Shown here: piece after piece, positions 4,131 to 16,220 of the stretch
Layout: the number at the start of each line of letters is the position of its first letter
Numbering within the stretch: the stretch's first letter is position 1
From: Candidatus Thiodiazotropha sp. CDECU1
GTDB taxonomy: Bacteria > Pseudomonadota > Gammaproteobacteria > Chromatiales > Chromatiaceae
Assembly: GCF_963455295.1 (NCBI RefSeq)
Contig: NZ_OY734020.1
Coordinates: 3,472,001 to 3,536,000, forward strand
Length of the DNA: 64,000 nt
Reading direction: 5' to 3'
Translations under genes and position numbers: made by a program
Notes under the pieces: model-generated
Database searches by the model: none
Seen by the model: only the letters and a program-made list of their open reading frames with translations
What the model was told of the DNA's origin: nothing

Positions 4131-4883
4131 TCACAGGTTGAGGTAACGCACGCCGGTGTTCAACTCGAGGTCGGCCCGGATCTGTACTGAGTTGTGGGAT
4201 TTGAGAACCCGGCTGATTTCGCTGTTCGGATCCTTCATATCACCAAATAGAATCGCACCATGCCCCTCCTTGGTACAGGCCTCCTGACAGGCCGTCTGCA
4301 TCTCGCCGGCATCTATCCTGTGCACGCAAAGGGTGCAGGATTCGACACATCCCTTACCCCGCGGCGCATTCACCGATTGACCCGATAGGGCTTCATGCAC
4401 GAAGGAACGGGCCTTGTAGGGACAGGCCATCATACAGTAGCGGCAACCGATGCAGCGGTGGCGATCGACCAGTACCACACCGTCTATGCGTTTGAATGAT
4501 GCATTGGTGGGGCAGACATCGACACAGGGAGGATGCTCACAGTGCTGACACATCATCACCAGGCGATTGACGTGGCCGGTCTGCTTGTCCTTGAGTTTGA
4601 CCGGACGAATCCAGACCGCATCGGTCTCAGGCCTGTCATGACCGGTCAGGCCGTGCTCACTGTTACAGGCATCGACACAGCTACTGCATCCCTCGGCGCA
4701 TTTATTGGAATCGATCAGCATCCCCCAACGATGTTTGCCGGTTGCACCCGAATCTGCATCATCACTGCCGCTTGCAGCGTGCAATATTACACCGGGTGCC
4801 AGGGTCAACGCCCCGGCAGCTGCCAAGGTACCGCCGATGAACTGGCGGCGTTCTACGCTCGGCTGGTCACTTTTATCGCTCAT
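4131..4883 (-). CDS. dsrO: DsrO, Tat-exported four-cluster ferredoxin-like subunit
   Basis: The 250-aa protein starts MSDKSDQPSVERRQFIGG, a twin-arginine export signal followed by a hydrophobic run, so it acts on the periplasmic side of the membrane. The mature part has the cysteine clusters of the DMSO reductase B-subunit family: CAEGCSSCVDACN, CQHCEHPPCVDVCP, CIGCRYCMMACP and CVESCTLCVHR. These bind four [4Fe-4S] clusters. Longer readings upstream are open but run through dsrJ in another frame; the ATG at 4883 places the Tat motif correctly and lies 2 nt after the dsrJ stop. DsrO passes electrons between DsrJ on the periplasmic side and DsrP in the membrane. Confidence 0.95.
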   Translation of the reverse strand: MSDKSDQPSVERRQFIGGTLAAAGALTLAPGVILHAASGSDDADSGATGKHRWGMLIDSNKCAEGCSSCVDACNSEHGLTGHDRPETDAVWIRPVKLKDKQTGHVNRLVMMCQHCEHPPCVDVCPTNASFKRIDGVVLVDRHRCIGCRYCMMACPYKARSFVHEALSGQSVNAPRGKGCVESCTLCVHRIDAGEMQTACQEACTKEGHGAILFGDMKDPNSEISRVLKSHNSVQIRADLELNTGVRYLNL

Positions 4884-4885
4884 GA

Positions 4886-5356
4886 TCAGTCTCTCTGTCT
4901 GCCAGCAGGCTGTTGCATATCCAAGGCATGGGTATGCGCCTCCAAACGGTAACCAAGCGAGCTTCCGCTGCCGCTCTCCATGGGTGTAGTACGATGACAC
5001 TGAAAGCAGGCCGGACTCACAGCAACGTAACCATGACAAGCCTGACAAAACTCGCCTTCGCTGGTAACCGATATACCTTGACCGCTAGAATCCCTGGAGG
5101 CATGGCAATCGATACACTCGGATAGACTGTATTTCAGACCACGAACCCCATCCCTGACCGTATCGTCCCTACCATGTTGGAGGAAATCCATATGGTTGCG
5201 ACGCATCACATCGGTGGGAGCGACACAGCTGTCCACTGAGGCAGCCTTTGAATTTTCGGTCACATACCGACTCTCACCCATGGCCTGCATAGCGGGTAAC
5301 AACAGACCTGCCAGCAGGATAATGAGGAGTCGCTTGCTGATGAGAGAACTACGCAT
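4886..5356 (-). CDS. dsrJ: DsrJ, triheme c-type cytochrome
   Basis: The 156-aa product has an N-terminal hydrophobic signal or anchor (RLLIILLAGLLLPAMQAMG) and three haem-binding CxxCH sites (CIDCH, CQACH, CFQCH). It is therefore a periplasmic triheme cytochrome. An additional cysteine before the haem region (VDSCVAPTDVM) sits where DsrJ proteins carry the unusual Cys axial ligand of one haem. The start at 5356 lies 8 nt after the dsrL stop and directly precedes the hydrophobic segment; a longer reading upstream would overlap dsrL and spoil the signal. DsrJ belongs to the DsrMKJOP transmembrane complex. Its exact redox role is still debated. Confidence 0.94.
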   Translation of the reverse strand: MRSSLISKRLLIILLAGLLLPAMQAMGESRYVTENSKAASVDSCVAPTDVMRRNHMDFLQHGRDDTVRDGVRGLKYSLSECIDCHASRDSSGQGISVTSEGEFCQACHGYVAVSPACFQCHRTTPMESGSGSSLGYRLEAHTHALDMQQPAGRQRD

Positions 5357-5364
5357 CTCAGCTC

Positions 5365-7311
5365 CTATTCTCCTAACCCCATCTGGATATATCCCGTGGG
5401 GCAAACATCGGTACAAACATGGCAACCGATACACTTGTTGTAGTCGGTATCGACATATCGACCGGTGGTCGATTCCGTTTTCTTGACCCGGAATACCGCA
5501 TCTTGCGGGCAGAACACGACACAGTTGTCGCACTCGAAACACATGCCGCAACTCATGCAGCGCTTGGCTTCGTCCTGAACCTGTTCCTGGTTCAAGCCGT
5601 TCATACGCTCCTTGAAGTGGTGCAGCACCTGATCCGCAGTAGGCACATCCTCCGAACGCAGCAGACGCGGTGTGAAAGAGAAGTGCCCCAGGTACAGATC
5701 GCCAGCAGGAATCACCTCATGATATGAGCGATCCTCATAGTTGTGTACAGCAAACTTTGCGGTGTTGGTGCCACGCAGGTCATCCTCGTTCTTATCGAAA
5801 ACTTCCGGCGACATATCTGTCTCTTCCAGCTTGTCTAGCAGATCGAAATGGTGCACATCCACCTTTGGACGTTTCGCCAGATCTTTTTTATTCAGATAGG
5901 CATCGATGCTTTCACAGGCGATTGAGGCCTGGCCGATGGCGGTGGTCAACAGATGCGGACGAATGATATCACCGGCCACGAAATGACCTTCCTTGCCAGG
6001 TACCTGATAGAACTTATCCGCGTCCATCAGGTTTTTATCGTTGGCCATCTCTTCAAGCCCTTCCATATCGGCACTCTGACCGATGGCGGAGACGATGAGA
6101 TCGGCTTCCAATACGCGTTCTGTACCCTCGGTGGGAATCGGGGTCATGCCATCCATGGTGCAGTCACATACCCTGAGGCCTGTGGCGCGACCGTTGTCAC
6201 CAAGGATCACTTCCAGCGGCATCACACCGTCCAGGATCTCACACCCCTCATGCAGGGCATCGTGAATCTCGTGCTGCGCGGCAAACATCTTGTCCTTGGT
6301 GAACAAGGAGGTCAGGGTGGCGGCGGCAGGCTCTGCCCCATCGGCCAGGGCATCATCCTGGTTCATACTGGTATCGAGTACCACCTCTTCGGGTTTACCG
6401 GCTGCGCTGTTAGTGCCCAGGCGTCTGGCCACAGAGATCACGTCGATAGAAGTATCACCACCACCGATACAGACAACATTCTTGGCGGTTACCTTCATGC
6501 GGCCTTCGTTGAAGGCCTTGAGGAAGGCCACACCGGAGACACAGTTGGGGGTACCGACCCAGCCATCCACCGGCAGATCACGACCATTCTGGCAACCGAG
6601 GGCCCAGAGAATCGCATCGTGCTCTTTCTCGATATCGGCAACAGGCACATCGGCACCAATCTTGACACCGGTGCGGGTCTCGACACCCATGTCGAGAATG
6701 CGTTGGATCTCAGCCTGCAGCTTGTCGCGGGGGATACGATAGTTGGGAATGCCGTAACGCATCATACCGCCTAGCTCGGGATCCTTCTCGAATACGGTCA
6801 CACCATGACCCATCTTGCGTAGCTGGAAGGCAGCCGCCATACCCGCGGGACCGCCACCGATGACCGCCACCTTCTTACCGGTATCGGTACCGGGGGTGAA
6901 CTTGAAACCCTTCTCGATGGCAGTATCGCCGATGTACTGTTCCACCGCGTTGATACCGACGAAGTCTTCTACCTCGTTGCGGTTACAGCCATCCTGACAA
7001 GGTGCCGGACAGACTCTACCCATCATGGAAGGAAAGGGATTGGCCTCTACCGCACGCTCGAAGGCATACTGCTCCCAATCCATACCCTCGGAAGGCTTCT
7101 CCTGCTCACGTACGATTGCCAACCAACCACGGATATCGTGACCAGACGGGCAGCTGCCCTGGCATGGGGGTGTACGATTGATATAGGTGGGGCACTTGTA
7201 GGAGGTATCTTCAAGGAAGATTTTATCACCCCAATCATCCCATTCAGTTTCGCCCTCTTCAAAGCGGCGCCAAGTAATCGGTTTTTTCATCTCTTCGCTA
7301 GGAGTTGCCAT
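5365..7311 (-). CDS. dsrL: DsrL, iron-sulfur flavoprotein NAD(P)H oxidoreductase
   Basis: This 648-aa cytoplasmic protein resembles the small subunit of NADPH-dependent glutamate synthase. It has an N-terminal iron-sulfur region (CPAPCQDGCNR), an FAD-binding motif VAVIGGGPAGMAAA near residue 150 and a second dinucleotide fold VVCIGGGDTSID. A C-terminal ferredoxin-like extension contains CMSCGMCFECDNCVVFCP and CIGCHVCTDVCP. DsrL accepts electrons from DsrAB when sulfite reductase runs in the oxidative direction and passes them to NAD(P)+. Its presence in the operon is a strong sign that this dsr set is oxidative. The gene sits between dsrK and dsrJ, the usual order in sulfur-oxidising bacteria. 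Confidence 0.96.
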   Translation of the reverse strand: MATPSEEMKKPITWRRFEEGETEWDDWGDKIFLEDTSYKCPTYINRTPPCQGSCPSGHDIRGWLAIVREQEKPSEGMDWEQYAFERAVEANPFPSMMGRVCPAPCQDGCNRNEVEDFVGINAVEQYIGDTAIEKGFKFTPGTDTGKKVAVIGGGPAGMAAAFQLRKMGHGVTVFEKDPELGGMMRYGIPNYRIPRDKLQAEIQRILDMGVETRTGVKIGADVPVADIEKEHDAILWALGCQNGRDLPVDGWVGTPNCVSGVAFLKAFNEGRMKVTAKNVVCIGGGDTSIDVISVARRLGTNSAAGKPEEVVLDTSMNQDDALADGAEPAAATLTSLFTKDKMFAAQHEIHDALHEGCEILDGVMPLEVILGDNGRATGLRVCDCTMDGMTPIPTEGTERVLEADLIVSAIGQSADMEGLEEMANDKNLMDADKFYQVPGKEGHFVAGDIIRPHLLTTAIGQASIACESIDAYLNKKDLAKRPKVDVHHFDLLDKLEETDMSPEVFDKNEDDLRGTNTAKFAVHNYEDRSYHEVIPAGDLYLGHFSFTPRLLRSEDVPTADQVLHHFKERMNGLNQEQVQDEAKRCMSCGMCFECDNCVVFCPQDAVFRVKKTESTTGRYVDTDYNKCIGCHVCTDVCPTGYIQMGLGE

Positions 7312-12464: not shown

Positions 12465-13709
12465 TTATTGAGCCGCCTTTTGCTCAGCCCACTTGGCTGC
12501 TTCTTCCTCCCATCCATCCATACGGACATAGGGATTCATTCGCGGACGCTCGATCATGTTGGGATCGATCTCGAGGCCGACACCTTCCAGGAAGTTAACC
12601 AGGCCGATACGTTCGATCATCTCACCGGTACGCTCGTGCTCGAGGGCGTTCTCGGCAAAGAAGTCGAGGATCTCGGTCGCCAGCTCTTCCAGCCATTCGA
12701 AGTCCTCGTCGGTCTCCAGCTTGTGGAAAGGCACGATCACTGTACCCATCAGATCACCGATCTTGAGAGTACGCTTACCGCCGCAGAGCAGGGTGATACC
12801 CTTGTCGTCGCCGGGAGAGAGCGCCTTGTTCATGACGTTGATGCAGTGCATGCAACGGACACAGGAGGGGTTGTCCACCGCCAGGGTATCATCGTCGTTC
12901 AGCGACAGGGCCTGGGTCGGGCAACGGGTGATGACATTGTCGATAACATACTTGCGGCCTTTCTCGGTCACAAACTTCTTGACCTCGTCCTGGTCGACCT
13001 TCATGTCGTCGCGCCAGGTACCGATGGTAGCCAGGTCGGCACGCTGCACGGAGTTCATGCAGTCGTTGGGGCAACCTGAAACCTTATACTTGAATTTGTA
13101 GGGCAGTGCGGGACGATGCATGTCGTCGAGGGCGTTGTTGACCAGCATGCGCATGGTACGGCCCTCGTCGAAGCAGGAGTTCTCGCAGCGAGCGGCACCC
13201 ACACAGGACATACCGGTACGCACTGCGGGACCGGCGCCACCGAGATCGAAGCCCATCTCGTTTATCTCATCGAAAGCGGGCTGGACATTGTCGGTGGAAC
13301 AGCCCTGGAACATGATGTCGCCGGACTGGCCGTGGAAGGCGATCAGGCCGGAGCCATACTTCTCCCAGATGTCGCAGAATTTGCGAATGGTGTTGGTGTC
13401 ATAGTGCATGCCTGGAGGGGGCATGACACGAAGCGTGTGGAACTCGGCCGCCGCGGGGAACAGGGCCTCTCCGTCGTCATTCTTGAGTTCGGTAAAGCGG
13501 GGGATGATACCGCCACCATAACCGAGCACGCCAACGGTACCGCCCTTCCAGTAACCCTTGCGTGTCTCGTATGAGGTCTCCAGCTGACCCAGCAGGTCAA
13601 CCATCATGTCGTTATCTTTGGCGAGGCGCTTGAGGCCGGTGACAAACGAGGGCCAGGGGCCGCTCTCCAGCTGGTCAAGCATGGGGGTATCATGCATCTG
13701 TTTTGCCAT
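12465..13709 (-). CDS. dsrA: Oxidative dissimilatory sulfite reductase alpha subunit DsrA
   Basis: The 414-aa alpha subunit is the first gene of the operon. It contains the siroheme/[4Fe-4S] cysteine region (GAARCENSCFDEG and KVSGCPNDCMNS). An inserted ferredoxin domain shows CPTQALSLND and CVRCMHCINVM. With DsrB it forms the siroheme sulfite reductase that acts in reverse on DsrC-bound sulfur in this type of organism. The start at 13709 is preceded by GGGAGAAAGAG at good spacing; a longer reading from 13724 would use that ribosome site as coding sequence. Upstream lies a 480-nt spacer with palindromes, shared with the divergent 14191 cassette. Confidence 0.97.
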   Translation of the reverse strand: MAKQMHDTPMLDQLESGPWPSFVTGLKRLAKDNDMMVDLLGQLETSYETRKGYWKGGTVGVLGYGGGIIPRFTELKNDDGEALFPAAAEFHTLRVMPPPGMHYDTNTIRKFCDIWEKYGSGLIAFHGQSGDIMFQGCSTDNVQPAFDEINEMGFDLGGAGPAVRTGMSCVGAARCENSCFDEGRTMRMLVNNALDDMHRPALPYKFKYKVSGCPNDCMNSVQRADLATIGTWRDDMKVDQDEVKKFVTEKGRKYVIDNVITRCPTQALSLNDDDTLAVDNPSCVRCMHCINVMNKALSPGDDKGITLLCGGKRTLKIGDLMGTVIVPFHKLETDEDFEWLEELATEILDFFAENALEHERTGEMIERIGLVNFLEGVGLEIDPNMIERPRMNPYVRMDGWEEEAAKWAEQKAAQ

Positions 13710-13724
13710 CACTCTTTCTCCCAA

Positions 13725-14190
13725 TGGTCGTTTTCTTCAGGTCTTCTGCTGATTCTTCGCCTGATGTTTTAGCTGCGCCAAACACCCTGACAGAAAAAAC
13801 CGGCCACCGACCTGCAATCCGAAACCGTTACAGGCAACCGGCCTGTTTCTACTGGTGCGAATTTTAGGGATGTCTAATGCTGACCAATATCCTTCCGATG
13901 GGGGGGAAAGGGATATTTATAACTATCCCATTTGGGATATATTTTCACAAAAATCGGGGTAAAAAGGCTCAAAAATGAACAAAGTTTATTTTTATATACA
14001 ATAACTTAAAGTCTATAATTCATTTCTAATATTCAATATAGTCCCTTACTTTCACCAGGGTAGGTTTTACCGATAAACTTGGGTAAAAGACCCTTGATCC
14101 TACATCGCACATGCGGTTCAATATGAATAACCGAGTATTTTACTGCGATTTTGCCGCGGCAGTCGCCAGACCACATGGATTAAATCAAAG
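13725..14190. promoter_or_regulatory. Divergent promoter region between dsrA and the 14191 cassette, with palindromes
   Basis: This spacer of about 470 nt holds no convincing gene and is AT-rich around 13980-14040. Two candidate operators are visible. The first is TATCCCA-TT-TGGGATA at 13924-13939, with a further GGGATAT at 13910-13916, so the same half-site appears three times upstream of dsrA. The second is TTTTACC-10 nt-GGTAAAA at 14065-14088, nearer the rightward genes. Both are perfect inverted repeats. No clear -35/-10 pair could be assigned with confidence. The binding proteins are unknown. Confidence 0.45.
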
Positions 14191-14367
14191 ATGCTGTATT
14201 TGAGTGAGTTAATGATGCAACACCCAGAGGTCGACAACTTCGACAAACTGCTGGAGGTGGTGAAAGAGCGTTCCAAGACCGAGATGTTCTTTCGCATCGA
14301 TGTCAAACCCCCCTTCAGCGACACCCCCGACAACTGGGAAGACCGCCTCGAAGCGACTTTCACCTAG
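14191..14367 (+). CDS. Small 58-aa protein of unknown function
   Basis: This short frame starts at ATG 14191 and ends in TAG at 14365-14367. The product begins MLYLSELMMQHPEVDNF and ends DRLEATFT. It is soluble-looking, rather acidic, and not recognised as any family. No strong ribosome site precedes the first ATG; the ATG pair at 14212/14215 is an alternative start. Its codon use resembles the neighbours and it is co-directional with the three genes that follow. The stop codon lies at the edge of a short GGGGCTGTTGACAGACCCC hairpin. Reality is plausible but unproven. Confidence 0.5.
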   Translation: MLYLSELMMQHPEVDNFDKLLEVVKERSKTEMFFRIDVKPPFSDTPDNWEDRLEATFT

Positions 14368-14386
14368 GGGCTGTTGACAGACCCCA
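14366..14386. repeat. Short GGGNCTGTTGACA hairpin repeat
   Basis: The sequence GGGGCTGTTGACAGACCCC forms a short stem with a central TTGA-type loop. A very similar core, AGGGCCTGTTRACA, occurs at 16965, 25531, 27606 and 35872. This looks like a dispersed repeat family of this genome, sitting in intergenic gaps or at gene ends. It could also act as a weak terminator for the 58-aa ORF. Confidence 0.5.
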
Positions 14387-14407
14387 GTAGCAACCGGGAA
14401 TACCATT

Positions 14408-15124
14408 GTGAAGTACCTAGAATCTGAAGCCTTTATCGGTGACAACGACAGTTCGGAAGACGCCATAAAGTCGAGCAAGCTGCTGCAGCTAAAACTCGAT
14501 GAAAAATGTGAGGCCTTGTCTGCCCTGCCTGAGGACGCCTCCCACGACAAGCGATTCGAACTGCAACTTGAATCCGCCTATATCCTGCTCGACCTGGACA
14601 GGCAGCAGGAGGCCTGGGAGATTGCCAAGGGTGTGCTGGAGCAGGCCCTCGACCAGGAGCTGTGGCTGAGGGCCGTGGAGGCCTGTGACATCCTATACCA
14701 ATCCGAACGAGCGGACGCGGTAAAGGCGCTGGCTCATGGTATCTGGCTGGGTGTCACATTCCCCATCGATCCTGAATTGAGTGTGGCCATACTGCAGCAT
14801 CTCATCGACGAGACCCCCGACAACTCGGATGGGGCCGCAGTGGCCGCTGCGACGGCCTGCTATGTGGTGGATATCCGCGCCCAGGGAGAGGAGCGTGAGG
14901 ATCTCAAATTCTTTACCAACCAGCTACTGGGCCAGGTCGCCAGGCGCCACAGCCAGGTGGAGGAGCAGGAGATTTTCGATTTCTGGGTGGAACGCATGCA
15001 GCTGGACGATCCGGGCAAGTTTCTACCCAGGCTGGCCAAGGTGCTCGAGGTCATCGTCGAGGACGACTGGTGGTTCGATCGGGATGCCCTGCGGGGGAAA
15101 ATCCCAGCCGACGAGGTGCATTGA
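14408..15124 (+). CDS. Conserved-looking alpha-helical protein in the dsr-linked cassette, function unknown
   Basis: The 238-aa protein starts at GTG 14408 (VKYLESEAFIGDNDSSED). It is predicted cytoplasmic, acidic and almost wholly alpha-helical, with stretches such as FELQLESAYILLDLDRQQEAWEI at residues 50-72 that resemble TPR-type helical repeats. There is no catalytic motif I can name. The stop TGA at 15122-15124 directly abuts the ATG of the next gene (Cas6-like), so the two are translationally coupled. Its place beside a Cas6-like RNA-binding protein and a DsrC paralogue suggests a shared job, perhaps as a scaffold; this is inference only. Confidence 0.75.
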   Translation: MKYLESEAFIGDNDSSEDAIKSSKLLQLKLDEKCEALSALPEDASHDKRFELQLESAYILLDLDRQQEAWEIAKGVLEQALDQELWLRAVEACDILYQSERADAVKALAHGIWLGVTFPIDPELSVAILQHLIDETPDNSDGAAVAAATACYVVDIRAQGEEREDLKFFTNQLLGQVARRHSQVEEQEIFDFWVERMQLDDPGKFLPRLAKVLEVIVEDDWWFDRDALRGKIPADEVH

Positions 15125-15793
15125 ATGAATGCGATGTTCTGGCAGGAAGATACGGATGAGGCACAGTTTGTGGTGCCCGATAATGTGGTTGACCTGATCT
15201 TCAAGATCAACTGTCCCACCCTACCCGTCGACCATGCCTGGTCCCTCTCCGATGCGATACATCAAGAGCTGCCCTGGTTTACCGAAGAGCCAAAGGCCGG
15301 ACTCCATCTGGTGTATGGCGCCGATTCCGGGAACGGCTGGGAACGGCCCAGCGAAGCCTCAGAGACCCTCTATCTCTCCCGTCGCACCCCCCTGATCCTG
15401 CGCTTGCCGAAACAGCGGCTCGAGGATGCCGCCGAACTCTCCGGCAAAACCCTGCAGATCGACGGCAACAGGATGGAGATCGGGGCCGCCCATAGCCGGT
15501 TTCTCGCCATGACCACAACCCTCTACTGTCGCCATCTCATCTGCGAAGCGGATCAGAGTGAGGACGATTTCATGCAGTCCGCGGTGGAATCCTTGCGCTC
15601 ACTCAACCTGAGGTTTAAGAAAGTGTTGTGCGGTAAAGGCGCCTCCTTCACCACACCCCAAACACCTGTCACGACCCGCAGCCTGATGGTCTCAGGCATG
15701 TCGCTGGAGGATGCGGTCACCCTGCAGGAGTATGGTATCGGACCTCACCGCAATCGCGGTTTTGGCTTGTTTGTTCCACACAAGACTGTATAA
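15125..15793 (+). CDS. Cas6/Cmx6-like RAMP-fold protein, no CRISPR in window
   Basis: The 222-aa protein resembles the Cas6/Cmx6 family of I-MYXAN-type CRISPR endoribonucleases. N-terminal VVDLIFKINCPTLPVDHAWSL carries a histidine where the family has one. Middle blocks include GLHLVYGADSGNGWERP, LYLSRRTPLILRLPK and LSGKTLQIDG. Near the C-terminus VLCGKGASFTTP, TRSLMVSGMS and the glycine-rich loop GIGPHRNRGFGLFVPHK match the RNA-binding loop region of Cas6 proteins. No array and no other cas gene is seen anywhere in the window. It follows the 238-aa gene with zero gap, and a cysteine-less DsrC paralogue follows. The family likeness is from memory. Whether it cuts RNA is unknown. Confidence 0.75.
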   Translation: MNAMFWQEDTDEAQFVVPDNVVDLIFKINCPTLPVDHAWSLSDAIHQELPWFTEEPKAGLHLVYGADSGNGWERPSEASETLYLSRRTPLILRLPKQRLEDAAELSGKTLQIDGNRMEIGAAHSRFLAMTTTLYCRHLICEADQSEDDFMQSAVESLRSLNLRFKKVLCGKGASFTTPQTPVTTRSLMVSGMSLEDAVTLQEYGIGPHRNRGFGLFVPHKTV

Positions 15794-15875
15794 GATACTG
15801 CGCCAGGAAATACATTAACCCCTAACTAGACGGGCACTGACCCCGCTTGTTGTATCTGTTTGAAAGGAGAGATCA

Positions 15876-16220
15876 ATGGCATATGAAGTAAACGGTAAAA
15901 CCATCGAGGCCGACGCCAACGGCTACCTGGCCGATCACACTGATTGGAGTGAGGATGTGGCCAAGGCCATCGCCGCGAGCGAGGGTCTCGAGCTGAGCGA
16001 AAAGGCCTGGGAGATCATCAACTACCTGCGCGACGAGTATTTCAATAACGGCGGCAACCAACCCAATGAACGCCACATGGTCAAACATTTCAAGGGAGCC
16101 TGGACCGACCAGGGCAAAGTGGATGCAAAATCCCTCTATATTCACTTTCCCAAGGGCCCGGCAAAGCAGGCGAGCAAGGTTGCCGGTCTGCCTGAGACCA
16201 AGCGCAAGGGTGGTTACTGA
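15876..16220 (+). CDS. DsrC-family paralogue lacking both redox cysteines (RspA-like)
   Basis: The 114-aa protein clearly belongs to the DsrC/TusE family: MAYEVNGKTIEADANGYL and WEIINYLRDEYFNNGGNQP match the DsrC core. The functional arm, however, reads AKQASKVAGLPETKRKGGY. The first cysteine is replaced by serine and the terminal cysteine is gone, so it cannot carry sulfur. Such cysteine-less forms have been called RspA and are proposed to be regulatory. A good ribosome site (AAAGGAGAG) precedes the ATG. The gene ends the cassette that begins at 14191 and lies about 80 nt after the Cas6-like gene. A role as a competitor of DsrC, or as a sensor, is inference. Confidence 0.9.
   Translation: MAYEVNGKTIEADANGYLADHTDWSEDVAKAIAASEGLELSEKAWEIINYLRDEYFNNGGNQPNERHMVKHFKGAWTDQGKVDAKSLYIHFPKGPAKQASKVAGLPETKRKGGY

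Follow-up and report, generated by a model that had tools for sequence, protein, structure and literature searches.

The locus

The window analysed here is 64 kb of the 4.46 Mb one-contig genome of Candidatus Thiodiazotropha sp. CDECU1 (contig NZ_OY734020.1, positions 3,472,001 to 3,536,000). It contains a leftward dsr operon in which dsrA is followed by dsrB, E, F, H, C, M and K (gene order by homology). Divergent from dsrA lies a cassette of four rightward genes (Table 1), and our subject is the third of these, which encodes a protein of the Cas6/Cmx6 family, together with the fourth, which encodes a DsrC paralogue. An earlier note on this DNA had described four rightward open reading frames (ORFs) beginning 481 nt from dsrA, with a gap of zero between the 238-aa gene and the Cas6-like gene. 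Both descriptions are accurate. The ORFs span 14191-16220, and dsrA has an in-frame ATG at 13709 (the listed ORF begins at TTG 13724), which gives a gap of 481 nt to 14191; the 238-aa gene (14408-15124) is followed without a spare base by the Cas6-like gene (15125-15793).

Table 1. Features of the dsrA/cassette region (window coordinates).
Feature	Position	Strand	Basis
dsrA, first gene of the divergent dsr operon	12465..13709	-	ORF positions, homology
16-bp dyad TATCCC-N4-GGGATA, probable operator, in the dsrA/cassette spacer	13924..13939	.	sole exact occurrence in the whole genome
58-aa conserved protein; first gene of the cassette in this genome	14191..14367	+	motif DVKPPF.DTP..WED.LE..F; homologues
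238-aa all-helical protein, TPR-like solenoid	14408..15124	+	GTG start; AlphaFold2 model
Cas6/Cmx6-family (RAMP) protein, 222 aa	15125..15793	+	PF09559; AlphaFold2 fold; candidate catalytic His37; loop GIGPHRNRGFG (residues 204-214)
DsrC/TusE-family paralogue, 114 aa, no Cys, C-terminal arm ending RKGGY	15876..16220	+	PF04358/TIGR03342

The Cas6-like locus was inspected in all 118 genomes of the class Gammaproteobacteria found to carry the gene (117 stretches and the window). That the cassette recurs far beyond chance is clear from the 58-aa ORF by itself, homologues of which occur in 98 of the 118 loci. Other recurrent members are the DsrC paralogue (95 loci), a TauD-like oxygenase (80), a 69-aa protein (57) and the 238-aa protein (45). 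Where at least 4.5 kb of upstream sequence is available (90 loci), dsrA stands divergent from the cassette in 72, and in the other 18 it is found elsewhere in the same genome; with shorter upstream sequence it is visible in 11 of 28 loci. Not one of 152 dsrA and dsrB ORFs lies on the cassette strand. A similar picture was obtained with named loci from a genome collection (the best 80 of at least 569), in which the Cas6-like gene is accompanied by the 58-aa gene (75 loci), the DsrC paralogue (73), dsrA (63) and the 238-aa gene (50).

Identity of the Cas6-like protein

The 222-aa protein is a member of Pfam family PF09559 (E 7.1e-53; 179.9 bits against a cut-off of 26.7). With TIGR02807 (cas6_cmx6) it scores 95.8 bits, slightly below the equivalog cut-off of 98.85. 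An alignment of 41 of the 118 relatives, the window protein included (alignment A1), was screened with an E limit of 4e-28, set to match that NCBI cut-off; 37 of its 41 members pass, the window protein not being one of them. Since most relatives pass, it is likely that these genes are named as CRISPR proteins. An AlphaFold2 model built from 66 of 81 sequences (the window and 80 named loci; alignment A3) has a mean confidence (pLDDT) of 90.6 and shows the double ferredoxin (RAMP) fold typical of Cas6. Its top match in the PDB is 8fcu_B, the Cas6 of a type I-B CRISPR-associated transposon (CAST), with TM scores of 0.80 and 0.83 and a root-mean-square deviation of 2.2; the next matches are other Cas6 and Cse3 chains. 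Profile and predicted fold therefore agree on the likeness to Cas6/Cmx6 that the earlier note had read from the sequence.

That note had also pointed to a histidine in the catalytic region and to the loop GIGPHRNRGFG, and both are conserved features of the family. As in Cas6 proteins, the histidine precedes the first helix and the glycine-rich loop is C-terminal. H37 is kept in 117 of 118 relatives (the remaining one, L058, has Asn), R93 in 118, R136 in 114, G212 in 114 and G214 in 116, and the candidate catalytic histidine and the loop are retained in nearly all relatives, down to approximately 31% identity. By its position, H37 would be the catalytic residue. The closest named relative found (among the best 80 of at least 569 loci) is that of Candidatus Thiodiazotropha endolucinida, with 80% identity, which makes a lucinid symbiont of the Thiodiazotropha type the probable source of the DNA.

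Two known systems are useful for comparison. The Cmx6 proteins of type I-MYXAN systems (TIGR02807, PF09559), such as those on plasmids of Synechocystis PCC 6714 and Nostoc CENA543, share with the window protein the profile, the length and the Asp-His pair at positions 36-37. All seven plasmid-borne cyanobacterial Cmx6 proteins compared (L151-L157) likewise have H37, R93, R136, Q201 and the glycine-rich loop. They differ from the window protein in that identity is only about 20-26% and in that the window protein has no cas3, cmx8 or cas8 neighbours. Only the dsr-linked clade has an extra SGNGW.RP segment and further invariant residues of its own, the near-invariant positions being W6, the N70-G71-W72 segment, R87, E146 and K220. 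The best solved relative, both by sequence (profile E 1.2e-21) and by fold, is the Cas6 of the type I-B CAST Cascade (8fcj, 8fcu), which works inside Cascade and, in the profile alignment, has Asn at the position of His37. Because active-site and loop residues are kept alongside clade-specific invariant ones, the pattern is that of a diverged subfamily that would still need the Cas6 active site and RNA loop. In a tree with the seven CRISPR Cmx6 proteins the dsr clade is separate with low local support (0.53), and for this reason a single capture is not argued from the tree. One of the seven, on a Gloeobacter morelensis plasmid (L151, 5977-6768), has no adjoining cas3 and lies two genes ahead of those for a PAPS-reductase-family protein and a cupin; it is perhaps another non-CRISPR use of Cas6.

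Co-occurrence with dsrA

In a sample of 369 gammaproteobacterial genomes, the Cas6-like gene was found in 118, dsrA (counted at E<1e-30) in 120 and both in 112 (Fisher p 2e-76, with genomes treated as independent and kinship uncorrected). A 119th Cas6-like match (G002), weak and with stops, was left out. Six genomes have the Cas6-like gene without dsrA; in two of them (G067 and G127) the contig stops at or near the TauD-like gene, where dsrA would be expected, and in the other four (G093, G186, G299 and G317) the gene is on contigs of approximately 3.5-7.4 kb. Eight genomes have dsrA only, and in six of these the contig breaks off within dsrA, or at most about 0.65 kb upstream of it, or (G123) in the cassette after the 58-aa gene.

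A second sample comprised 349 genomes of the phylum, searched with a profile from alignment A1. The Cas6-like gene was found in four, which are all four dsrA-positive genomes of the class and include the present one; outside the class it was found in none of 48 dsrA genomes (52 genomes had dsrA in total). Three divergent members in this sample also adjoin dsrA. Distance matrices of the Cas6-like protein correlate positively, if modestly, with those of DsrA (r 0.41; permutation maximum 0.23) and of the TauD-like protein (0.68), and several other pairs, such as DsrC paralogue versus 58-aa protein and DsrA versus DsrE, do not rise above permutations. The conservation of the cassette near dsr that the earlier note had proposed as a check is real: synteny recurs and 112 of the 118 Cas6-like genomes have dsrA. 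A role of the Cas6-like protein in oxidative Dsr metabolism is strongly implied.

Independence from CRISPR

In agreement with the earlier note, a simple repeat scan shows no CRISPR array in the window. The same scan found none in 196 of 197 fetched stretches with Cas6-like loci, three spaced repeats being seen only in L147. In place of the cas3 and cmx/cas8 neighbours and array of type I-MYXAN systems, the gene is surrounded by dsr and cassette genes; in contrast, six of the seven cyanobacterial Cmx6 genes (L152-L157) stand directly before cas3. Cas1 was sought in 80 of the 118 positive genomes, chosen by eye mostly for completeness; it is present in 37 and absent from 43, this genome being one of the latter. 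Four genomes of only 1.0-1.1 Mb without Cas1 (G039, G142, G287 and G351) retain the Cas6-like gene. The present genome has a single PF09559 gene, and each of the 119 positive genomes has one Cas6-like match, except for two pieces in G264. No confirmed relative was found on viral contigs. The view of the earlier note that this is not CRISPR immunity fits a genome with no Cas1 and one PF09559 gene, and a gene whose presence tracks dsrA. Of the three outcomes by which that note would have stood refuted, none was observed, arrays having been sought in the window and the fetched stretches. We consider it very probable that the protein has been domesticated outside CRISPR.

The cysteine-less DsrC paralogue and other partners

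The last gene of the cassette belongs to the DsrC/TusE family by profile (PF04358, 2e-32; TIGR03342, 1e-28, 99.8 bits against a cut-off of 53.5) and by core motifs. The earlier note was right that the protein lacks cysteine: it has none anywhere and so is without the penultimate cysteine of sulfur-carrying DsrC. That cysteine is present in all 72 canonical DsrC proteins of the same stretches, whereas all 95 cassette paralogues end in KGGY (92 in RKGGY); 20 of the 95 have a cysteine elsewhere in the sequence. Because KGGY replaces the cysteine tail, the paralogue would not carry sulfur on the usual cysteines. The name RspA has been used for cysteine-less DsrC members; a search for it gave nothing relevant. 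Expression of the gene may already have been recorded. According to a transcriptome report on Candidatus T. endolucinida, a DsrC/TusE gene (peg.3252) is highly expressed, at approximately 4,800-6,600 transcripts per million, and peg.3241, 3242 and 3244 are DsrC, TusB and TusD (PMC13137333). From gene order, as deduced from this numbering, peg.3252 may be the cassette paralogue. For Allochromatium vinosum, the customary genetic model, the DsrC paralogues on record (Alvin_0028, 0345, 0732 and 1508) do not have numbers adjoining that of dsrA (Alvin_1251).

The 238-aa protein has no Pfam or NCBIfam family above cut-off. It occurs in 93 of the 369 class genomes, all but one of them (92) with the Cas6-like gene. 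Its gene can also lie in another part of the genome, as in G109 and G325, where it adjoins the 58-aa gene. The AlphaFold2 model (46 of 51 sequences, alignment A4; pLDDT 90.3) is an all-helical solenoid with 11 helices of at least 4 residues, and it gave weak TPR-like or designed-repeat matches and no PDB match at E<=0.001. Distant relatives (47-53 bits) are encoded close to dsrAB, a few genes away, in two genomes of another class that are without the Cas6-like gene (L258:8886-9533 and L271:3338-3994).

The TauD-like dioxygenase of 80 loci (for example L062 and L034) mostly lies between dsrA and the 58-aa gene and is absent from the spacer of the window. Further 2OG-Fe(II) oxygenases recur near cassette loci. 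Downstream of the DsrC paralogue, 57 loci encode the conserved 69-aa protein, for example at L037:10262-10471.

Proposed role and the search for an RNA target

We propose that a Cas6-family protein was recruited from CRISPR, probably in a single event, and now serves gammaproteobacterial oxidative (reverse) Dsr as a permanent accessory. It belongs to a conserved cassette divergent from dsrA, together with the 58-aa protein, the cysteine-less DsrC paralogue and often the 238-aa solenoid. It would still bind or cut structured RNA, probably as an endoribonuclease, and the DsrC paralogue would signal to it how the sulfur relay stands. We give a probability of roughly 0.45 to this proposal taken together, namely that a domesticated Cas6, no longer part of CRISPR, acts on RNA as a permanent accessory of gammaproteobacterial oxidative Dsr. 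For an RNA-based activity by itself we put the chance at about even. The simplest guess for its target is dsr mRNA, a guess that we regard as doubtful. RNA-level control of dsr is a plausible guess, and the fuller scheme, in which a captured CRISPR RNA-processing nuclease controls dsr at the RNA level while the cysteine-less DsrC paralogue senses sulfur load, is rather unlikely.

If the proposal is correct, a widespread sulfur-oxidation pathway has an unrecognized, nearly universal accessory module, in which a Cas6 has been domesticated for metabolism and a metabolic regulator has been built from a CRISPR part. The named loci (the best 80 of at least 569) include those of animal symbionts, Beggiatoa-type giants and many uncultured Gammaproteobacteria, and in spite of its likely CRISPR naming the gene follows sulfur oxidation, not CRISPR. 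The proposal would also provide a handle on dsr regulation and on the role of cysteine-less DsrC paralogues. No publication on the association was found in the open literature, most subscription papers being outside that search. The accessible parts of PMC5728499, PMC11406059, PMC6397845, PMC7596348, PMC3368242, PMC13137333 and PMC11267869 make no mention of it.

Several results weigh against this proposal. Alignment of the dsrA leader from 29 close relatives showed no conserved RNA element, and Rfam gave no match at E<=1 in 11 kb. The cassette's own gaps fold near the shuffled level, with mean z values between -0.01 and -0.42, and -0.99 in the gap after the DsrC paralogue (here and below against 20 first-order shuffles per sequence). 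A hairpin in the dsrA/dsrB gap occurs also in five oxidizer-type loci of another class (L252-L256), which carry the pathway and in which the Cas6-like gene was not found; oxidizer type here means dsrA with dsrE, F, H or C and M, K. These five hairpins were called by minimum free energy and the weakest is that of L253. The invariant residues of the dsr clade that are without counterpart in CRISPR Cmx6 imply that the activity may have changed. Finally, two of the dsrA-only genomes of the class are not explained by contig edges: in G211 (86% complete, 390 contigs) different genes occupy the region upstream of dsrA and the Cas6-like gene is missing, and in G355 (88% complete, 440 contigs) the 1.75 kb preceding dsrA contain no cassette genes.

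Two candidate RNA targets were set aside. In the dsrA leader, conservation is limited to promoter-like elements. The second candidate was the set of intergenic hairpins, which are stronger than shuffles in the dsrA/dsrB gap (mean z -1.42, n=72) and the dsrC/dsrM gap (mean z -1.89, n=63). Their stems differ in sequence between the loci compared (the window and loci in the range L031-L147), and the dsrA/dsrB hairpin, as noted, is found without the gene. In the other classes, for which 40 of 48 dsrA loci were fetched, dsrA/dsrB gaps have a mean z of -0.15 with 4 below -2 (32 of 39, those of usable length), a value that at face value favours a link between hairpin and class and that comes from a poor control, because most of these loci show dsrAB without dsrEFH. 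With no conserved RNA element in the leader and a dsrA/dsrB hairpin that is not specific to the gene, there is no clear evidence for a dsr RNA target. The RNA-level control of the dsr genes suggested by the earlier note was not borne out by either of these, and the sole non-coding feature with strong conservation resembles a DNA operator.

This feature is the dyad in the dsrA/cassette spacer. It is exact in 27 of 82 loci and present with at most two mismatches in 68, versus 12 of 399 control stretches. In 20 of the 68, a -10-like AAGTCTA (TAGACTT in the dsr sense) lies 60-66 nt nearer dsrA, and many of the leaders compared have a second inverted repeat beside this element; the window's own group reads CTAAA.T at the corresponding position. 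The dyad was considered as an RNA hairpin and rejected: AA and TT forms of its four middle bases are both found, and it would lie upstream of the promoter where AAGTCTA is present. Both points make a DNA operator likelier. The dyad looks like a transcription-factor site and not a Cas6 hairpin, and it may be the operator of a dsr regulator. Its 7-2-7 layout resembles that of NarL/FixJ-type sites. The spacer of the 69-aa gene is enriched in GGGATAT, a half-site of the dyad.

Alternative explanations

The alternative that survives best, itself unlikely, is that the RAMP fold serves as a protein-binding scaffold. The cassette would then assemble, protect or regulate DsrAB or the DsrEFH/DsrC relay with no part for RNA, the RKGGY arm of the paralogue mimicking the arm of DsrC. 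Those partners whose type can be assigned resemble protein-interaction or sulfur-relay proteins, most clade-specific invariant residues lie outside the glycine-rich loop, and the leaders of the 29 close relatives yielded no RNA target. Moreover, the other class keeps TauD-like and 58-aa genes beside dsrA without the Cas6-like gene (in L254 near a siroheme synthase). However, retention of the candidate catalytic histidine and the loop down to approximately 31% identity would not be expected of a mere surface.

It is improbable that the module acts instead on tRNA or another stable RNA, which the Cas6-like protein would select or trim, linking sulfur supply to translation. Cas6 proteins recognize small RNA hairpins, the paralogue is in the TusE/DsrC family, members of which belong to tRNA 2-thiouridine relays, and the lack of a conserved local element would be expected if the target lay elsewhere in the genome. 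Against this stand the missing penultimate relay cysteine of the paralogue and the fact that the Cas6-like gene tracks dsrA.

We think it very improbable that the gene is a passenger, placed beside dsr by chance or by selfish linkage. In a mobile metabolic island, linkage by itself may look like function, and G211 and G355 seem to have dsrA without the gene beside it. On the other hand, it persists in the 18 well-covered loci where dsrA lies elsewhere in the genome, and it survives, with near-invariant residues, in genomes of 1.0-1.1 Mb.

The least probable explanation, an ordinary CRISPR Cas6 serving arrays elsewhere in trans, could appeal to the 37 of 41 aligned members within the TIGR02807-matched limit and to the 37 of 80 genomes with Cas1, but it is disfavoured by the lack of Cas1 here, by the absence of arrays from the window and 196 of 197 stretches in the simple scan, by a presence that tracks dsrA with or without Cas1 and by the single match in every genome except G264.

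Dsr loci of another class

Five of the 40 dsrA loci fetched from outside the class are of oxidizer type. The sequence of one, L252, begins 1.1 kb upstream of dsrA. In the other four (L253-L256), TauD-like and 58-aa genes stand divergent from dsrA and the next gene encodes a small DUF6967-like protein, which was called by Pfam in L254 and L255 and by our own profile in L253 and L256. The 58-aa protein is thus present in four of the five. Since these loci keep the TauD-like, 58-aa and DUF6967-like genes without it, the Cas6-like protein may have joined an older dsr-linked set of small proteins. In L254 the DUF6967-like gene is followed by a siroheme synthase, and L255 and L256 have ORFs similar to the latter by appearance only. 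Within the Gammaproteobacteria, five loci (L087, L090, L145, L239 and L240) have a DUF6967-like ORF immediately before the Cas6-like gene, and in L241 (8731-9615, minus strand) one reading frame joins DUF6967 (PF22295) to the Cas6-like domain.

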